From: Nanobdellati archaeon
Lineage (GTDB): Archaea; Nanobdellota; Nanobdellia; Woesearchaeales; JAADFO01
Length of the DNA stretch: 42,058 bases
Assembly (NCBI GenBank): GCA_013152815.1
Contig: JAADFO010000020.1
Coordinates: 1 to 42,058, forward strand
Reading direction: 5' to 3'
How positions within the stretch are numbered: the stretch's first letter is position 1; the number at the start of each line of letters is the position of its first letter. Position numbers and translations under genes: made by a program. Shown here piece by piece: positions 1,169-1,440 of the stretch. The notes beneath the pieces are model-generated. The model was not told the origin of the DNA, did no database searches, and saw nothing but the letters and a program-made list of their open reading frames with translations.

Positions 1169-1192
1169 AGCCCTCGTTCTTGTTTCTTGATT

Positions 1193-1440
1193 GTTATGTT
1201 GGGTTTGATACCCCGCGCTTCAGCGCGCAAACCCAACGTAACACCAGAAATTCCGTCTATTGATGTGAGGAGCGTCATACCCCGACCTCTTAAAAAAAAT
1301 CCTTGATTTTTTGGACGCCAGAAACATTGTTTCTGAGCGTTTAGGTCGGGGATGCACAGAAATGCTTGTGCATTTCTGGCACGCAAACCTTTGGTTTTAA
1401 CGTAGCTCCGAGCGACGGAATTTCTGATTTCTTTATTTTT
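1193..1440 (+). ncRNA. Multi-hairpin structured element downstream of metK (candidate structured RNA or mobile-element remnant)
   Basis: A dense nest of inverted repeats fills this convergent intergenic gap. Hairpin A pairs 1193-1206 with 1229-1242 (14 bp, one G-U) and contains a second stem, CGCGCT/AGCGCG (1214-1219/1222-1227). A separate outer stem pairs CAGAAATTCCGTC (1245-1257) perfectly with GACGGAATTTCTG (1414-1426). Inside it are CCCCGACCT/AGGTCGGGG (1280-1288/1343-1351), AAAAAATC/GATTTTTT (1294-1301/1305-1312), ACGC plus CAGAAAC with GTTTCTG plus GCGT (1315-1325/1329-1340), CAGAAATGC/GCATTTCTG (1357-1365/1370-1378) and AAACC/GGTTT (1385-1389/1393-1397). A T-rich run (1428-1440) follows the outer stem on the plus strand, as expected for a transcript end. 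No convincing protein is encoded. It could be a metK 3' UTR RNA, an independent ncRNA or the palindromic end of a decayed transposon. The pairings are directly visible; the function is unknown. Confidence 0.55.

Follow-up and report, generated by a model that had tools for sequence, protein, structure and literature searches.

A nest of hairpins next to metK in a Woesearchaeales archaeon is very probably a non-autonomous IS200/IS605-type transposon

The metK locus and its hairpins

The window (the whole analysed stretch of 42,058 nucleotides, contig JAADFO010000020.1 of a Woesearchaeales archaeon) starts with a gene for MetK (14-1168) with three S-AdoMet_synt Pfam domains, whose best outside matches come from Candidatus Woesearchaeota (71-73% identity). 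The wider relatives of this protein are mostly bacterial, suggesting a bacterial-type enzyme in an archaeon. On the minus strand, a gene for a nucleotidyltransferase-domain protein (PF01909; 1890-2429) adjoins a small open reading frame without Pfam match (1478-1888); this pair, adjacent to the element described below, looks like a HEPN/MNT-type one.

Between them lies a nest of hairpins. All inverted repeats listed in a preliminary description of positions 1193-1440 are present: the perfect 13-bp outer stem (1245-1257/1414-1426), a separate hairpin outside it (1192-1207/1228-1243; 16 nt, 94%) and, within the outer stem, hairpins at 1280-1288/1343-1351 and 1357-1365/1370-1378 (9 bp each) as well as at 1319-1326/1328-1335 and 1294-1301/1305-1312 (8 bp each). 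CAGAAA does recur in this copy. The RNA fold of the ~250 bp has an energy of -117.2 kcal/mol versus -67.8 ± 4.6 kcal/mol for 200 shuffled sequences (z = -10.8); z is -8.7 for the minus strand and -12.4 with single-stranded DNA parameters. The boundaries had to be redrawn: comparison with its copies reveals a unit of 237 bp (1192-1428), the window copy of a multi-copy, transposase-free element, and the T-rich tract (1429-1440), although present, lies outside this unit in flanking DNA that the copies do not have in common. The parts of the window copy are listed below, with the evidence in brackets.

1188-1191, plus strand: target tetranucleotide C_L, TGAT (within TTGAT), left of the element (copy comparison)
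1192-1428, plus strand: whole element, 237 bp (copies, length comparison, empty site in genome G056)
1192-1243, plus strand: left end, a long closing stem (1192-1206/1228-1243) that encloses the guide and an inner hairpin (repeats, fold)
1207-1210, plus strand: left guide G_L, GATA, which occupies +16 to +19 of the element like its IS608 counterpart (sequence; IS608 positions from PMC5934647)
1214-1227, plus strand: inner left hairpin IP_L, CGCGC-TTCA-GCGCG (fold)
1245-1426, plus strand: right end, closed by the 13-bp stem 1245-1257/1414-1426 (repeats, covariation)
1258-1273, plus strand: 5' bulge TATTGAT, GT, conserved GA (1267-1268) and GGAGC, facing GCTCC-GA-GC at 1405-1413 and forming with it a tandem G.A motif (alignments; the flanking helix covaries)
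1276-1279, plus strand: right guide G_R, CATA, which pairs with TGAT under the IS608 code (guide/target comparison)
1280-1351, plus strand: inner right hairpin IP_R, CCCCGACCT.../...TTAGGTCGGGG, whose loop CCT|TTAGG is split by insert M1 (sequence; uninterrupted in C15 and C51b)
1289-1340, plus strand: insert M1, 52 nt, hairpins AAAAAATC/GATTTTTT and CAGAAACA/TGTTTCTG (present in C53; absent from C15, C51b and C24)
1354-1403, plus strand: insert M2, 50 nt, hairpins CAGAAATGC/GCATTTCTG and AAACC/GGTTT (copy comparison)
1425-1428, plus strand: right-end cleavage tetranucleotide C_R, TGAT (right-end comparison)

Copies and distribution

Other copies in the same genome, which the preliminary description had proposed to look for, were found with 301 bp around the nest as query against the 1.49 Mb assembly (76 contigs). 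BLAST- and model-type searches detected copies or fragments on ten other contigs (C12, C14, C15, C24, C33, C35, C43, C46, C51 and C53), a number to be read as a lower bound; C51 carries two copies in tandem, one directly behind the end of the other. Aligned side by side, typical copies consist of a left and a right hairpin, and some are fragments. Minimal copies, e.g. C15, measure 135 bp; the window copy without its two inserts has the same length, shared also by L291 of genome G056, and an unchanged fold.

DNA similarity revealed relatives of the element in other families of Woesearchaeales. R1, a covariance model built on the right half and the kind of search suggested earlier for related archaea, matches 119 of 288 Woesearchaeales genomes, with up to at least 15 matches per genome and base pairs conserved by covariation. 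In a sample of 371 genomes from the phylum, all of the matches listed belong to the order Woesearchaeales or to the same class. Copy numbers are lower bounds, as up to 15 candidates per genome were scored in the order and up to 12 in the phylum. Placement is strongly intergenic: 4 of 35 cores overlap an open reading frame of at least 100 aa, compared with 78% of random placements, and copies are scattered over many unrelated intergenic loci. In G030 and G143, the core is found repeatedly at almost the same distance from the start of a contig (158-244, 52-140), which suggests that near-identical copies break these assemblies.

Insertion without target duplication

In 60 of the 73 copies with a placeable left arm, the same tetranucleotide stands in the left flank and at the right end; shuffling gave a mean agreement of 28.7 and a maximum of 40. 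Furthermore, an empty site exists in G056, where L154 reads TTCTGGACTTAC-CTTCGGTAAGAGTC without interruption (36/36), and L291 has 135 bp inserted exactly 3' of TTAC without target duplication; around the insertion point, the two loci match gap-free over 12 bp on the left side and 24 bp on the right. Two hallmarks of the IS200/IS605 group were found here, namely insertion 3' of a specific tetranucleotide without target duplication, and hairpins at both ends with a 5' guide that pairs with the cleavage site. Multiple copies with transposon hallmarks, named in the preliminary description among the outcomes that would refute its proposal, are essentially what we observed.

Structure of the right end

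Among 98 aligned right ends, 97.3% of the cells are paired, versus 34-47% in slid controls; this alignment was fitted to the structure, and the pairing figures therefore lean towards it. Two-sided (compensatory) changes occur in 25 of 26 base pairs, including all 11 pairs of the closing-stem helix (1245-1257/1414-1426 in the window), and the number of two-sided cells is 404 compared with 83 in the shuffle control. The effect size together with this control leaves little doubt about the covariation of the right end. Between its 5-bp and 2-bp helices sits a conserved GA/GA dinucleotide pair. Both ends of the element are closed by long stems, which, like the conserved tandem G.A motif, are unusual features.

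Guide and target change together

The tetranucleotide at the right end differs between subfamilies, being TTAC, TTAT or TGAT, and the guide tetramer on the 5' side of the inner right hairpin reads AAAG, AATA/AAAA and CATA, respectively. In IS608, guide and cleavage site also pair at position 4. The other IS608 pairs join guide base 1 with site base 2 and guide base 2 with site base 1 (A+16:T-3 and A+17:T-4; PMC5934647). All three pairs are obeyed in 42 of 45 genome-by-type combinations, whereas 10,000 shuffles yielded a mean of 19.6 and a maximum of 31 fits. The guide bases were taken from model columns, blind to the right-end sequence; TGAT ends were called by the string CTGAT and the others by model position, and the reading of the site was hence not wholly blind. 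Mutual information is highest for C2~G1 and C4~G4 (site and guide positions), i.e., the two pairs that are able to vary. The exceptions are a G266 copy that combines TTAT with AAAG, and two misfits of G000. The shuffle ignores the kinship of the genomes, a concern that is lessened by the coexistence of different codes within single genomes, which is the best guard against it: G017 has all three codes, and G030, G065, G086 and G113 have two each. Right guide and target thus covary in this element family according to the IS608 rule.

The statistics were restricted to the right end because extraction of left guides by regular expressions was biased. By inspection, left guides mostly agree with the code, the exceptions being the GATA copies of the genome studied here. 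The window copy shares GATA with several other copies of its genome; this guide predicts TCAT, and only C14 is located at TCAT. In the window it matches TGAT imperfectly, and other copies of the same genome have CATA.

Twin-hairpin inserts

M1 and M2, ~50 nt each, are both pairs of adjacent hairpins. M2 is also found in C12 and C43 and, diverged, in C51a, and is absent from C15, C51b and C24; in this genome, its exact first stem occurs only on C20, C12 and C43, always within element copies. Inserts of similar layout and different sequence were also detected: G141 (L286) and G048 (L160) carry them in the same loop as M1, G017 (L060) where M2 sits, and in G065, G086, G143, G246 and G266 they lie between the two ends or within them. 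Twin-hairpin inserts of ~50 nt recur in many genomes (also at L164, L249, L269 and L189) at a small number of element sites and share little sequence. They are possibly second-order parasites or duplicated stems.

Transposases of the order

There is no transposase inside the element, and no TnpA with matching ends was found in the genome studied here. The single Y1 locus of this genome is a fragment interrupted by an in-frame stop; it was rejected as the parent since its hairpins and ends differ by inspection. Y1 is present in 96 of 288 Woesearchaeales genomes, and TnpA is weakly associated with the element (51/119 genomes with it versus 45/169 without; odds ratio 2.1, p = 0.005, uncorrected for kinship). 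G030 possesses many near-identical copies and yet gave no Y1 match. Three TnpA-bearing loci (L207, L209 and L213) have a left end TTAT|...GGGTTTAATACCCC-hairpin with the guide AATA and a GGGTTTAATACC-type left motif, which is also found in left ends of the TTAT subfamily; judged by these shared ends, their transposases are candidate helpers. This type of transposase has few close relatives. The full parent transposon of the element was not found in our searches, and the element shares a short left motif with IS200-like elements.

Two further groups of TnpA elements were noticed. L204, L211 and L216 combine a GATA guide with a TCAT right end, in agreement with the IS608 rule, and represent a fourth code in the order. 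In L217 (G062) and L220 (G222), the right-end hairpin is enclosed by a stem (GAAAATCGGC/GCCGATTTTC) without a G.A motif, and such ends are possibly intermediate between ordinary IS200 ends and those of the element family.

Nature of the element

The identity of left flank and right end, the guide pairing and the empty site without duplication lead us to assign the nest, with considerable confidence, to non-autonomous IS200/IS605-type transposable elements (PATEs). An IS200/IS605-like palindrome had already been suspected; the kind was right, although what we see is a complete non-autonomous element, in which the two ends and their cleavage sites are present, and not one decayed end. The same suspicion had been balanced against a structured RNA tied to SAM metabolism, which is not supported, as the copies are intergenic at unrelated places, the metK loci of relatives lack the element and Rfam returned no match; a metK riboswitch fails on the same metK loci. 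More generally, a conserved cellular RNA (riboswitch or sRNA) that is multi-copy by chance would account for the strong fold, the strong covariation, the conserved unpaired bases and the tandem G.A motif. However, no fixed gene context was seen, nothing in Rfam matches at the gathering and E-value thresholds (the best sub-threshold hit, a microRNA model, is far below the cut-off), the boundaries are sharp with an empty site, and the coupling of an internal tetramer to the right end and to the flanking target is not explained by any RNA function, so that we regard such an RNA as highly improbable. Conserved base pairs are compatible with a mobile element as well, since single-strand transposition also demands pairing, and the covariation most likely reflects a DNA fold under the constraint of transposition.

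The element is short, palindromic, intergenic and multi-copy like REP/BIME or classical MITE-type elements that a RAYT, a DDE transposase or the like mobilises, but it causes no target duplication, its ends are not inverted repeats of each other and it obeys the IS608 code, all of which makes this origin very unlikely. The CTTTAG-type right hairpin and the TTGAT-like left motif, which we take to resemble those of TnpB-bearing elements such as ISDra2, could point to the end and guide-RNA (omega RNA) scaffold of a TnpB system, with TnpB acting from elsewhere. This is barely conceivable: just 17 of 288 genomes encode TnpB, the core has no strong match at these loci, and the element is widespread in genomes without TnpB.

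Other resemblances were considered and dismissed. The left stem GTTGGGT...ACCCAAC recalls an integron attC site, with the order reversed, and is not conserved in copies from other genomes. TGATG...CTGA and the tandem G.A pairs recall box C/D or kink-turn RNA; other subfamilies do not preserve these motifs, and CTGA belongs to the cleavage site. A hammerhead-like reading (CUGAUGA/GAAA) lacks the core.

For the IS200/IS605-type element, we infer a single-strand mechanism. When the strand is single, e.g. as lagging-strand template, both ends would fold, and a Y1-type TnpA, presumably supplied in trans, would bind the inner hairpins. The guides, each made up of the four bases 5' of such a hairpin, would pair with the tetranucleotides of the left flank and the right end; TnpA would then cut 3' of both and join the ends into a circle, which would re-enter the DNA 3' of another tetranucleotide that matches, without duplicating the target. 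The closing stems, together with the tandem G.A motif, may serve to present or hide the cleavage sites. A broader picture is offered tentatively, as we are somewhat more doubtful than convinced of it: the elements may form a lineage-wide, transposase-free single-strand family that was repeatedly retargeted by joint change of guide and cleavage site, with a right end of a new folded type (a closing stem with a tandem G.A clamp) that a Y1 transposase recognises in trans and that ~50-nt twin-hairpin parasites invade.

Relation to known elements and significance

The PATEs of Haloquadratum walsbyi are archaeal elements without a transposase gene, with near-terminal palindromes related to IS605-type elements; they occur in many copies, have neither inverted terminal repeats nor target duplication and are often interrupted by small repeats (PMC3119063). 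Our element is likewise too short for a transposase and shares the near-terminal palindromes and the absence of inverted terminal repeats and target duplication. In contrast to PATEs, it has long closing stems and a tandem G.A motif at the right end, spans much of an order and uses three target codes; the likeness is one of description, short of established homology, and a parent transposon was not found. Short inserts named SMR-A target the palindromes of PATEs and IS605 elements in Haloquadratum (PMC3119063). M1 and M2 are also short inserts in element palindromes; however, SMR-A is ~110 bp long with terminal inverted repeats, whereas M1 and M2 are twin hairpins of ~50 nt.

With IS608 the element shares insertion 3' of a tetranucleotide, a guide 5' of each hairpin and the pairing rule; the TTAC/AAAG subfamily even reproduces C_L and G_L of IS608 letter for letter, and the left guide of the window copy sits at +16 to +19. 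It differs in the absence of tnpA and tnpB, in its long closing stems and in having C_R equal to C_L (TTAC and TCAA in IS608). To our knowledge, neither long closing stems nor a G.A motif have been described for IS608 ends, and the geometry of the ends must therefore differ. The IS200-like TnpA elements of Woesearchaeales (L207, L209, L213; L204, L211, L216) follow the same grammar of guide plus hairpin, but carry tnpA, lack closing stems with a G.A motif and, in one group, have the loop TCT. Our literature search, incomplete in coverage, yielded no description of this Woesearchaeales element family.

Structural and engineering work has shown that IS608 chooses its target by base pairing. In the present family, natural variation carries this rule, with three targets and three matching guides, several of them in a single cell, and target switching of single-strand transposons thereby becomes testable from sequence alone. 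For RNA-discovery screens the case is a warning that covariation may come from a DNA fold under transposition constraint, and it accounts for a conspicuous group of hairpin nests in DPANN genomes, which one would otherwise describe as new structured RNAs.
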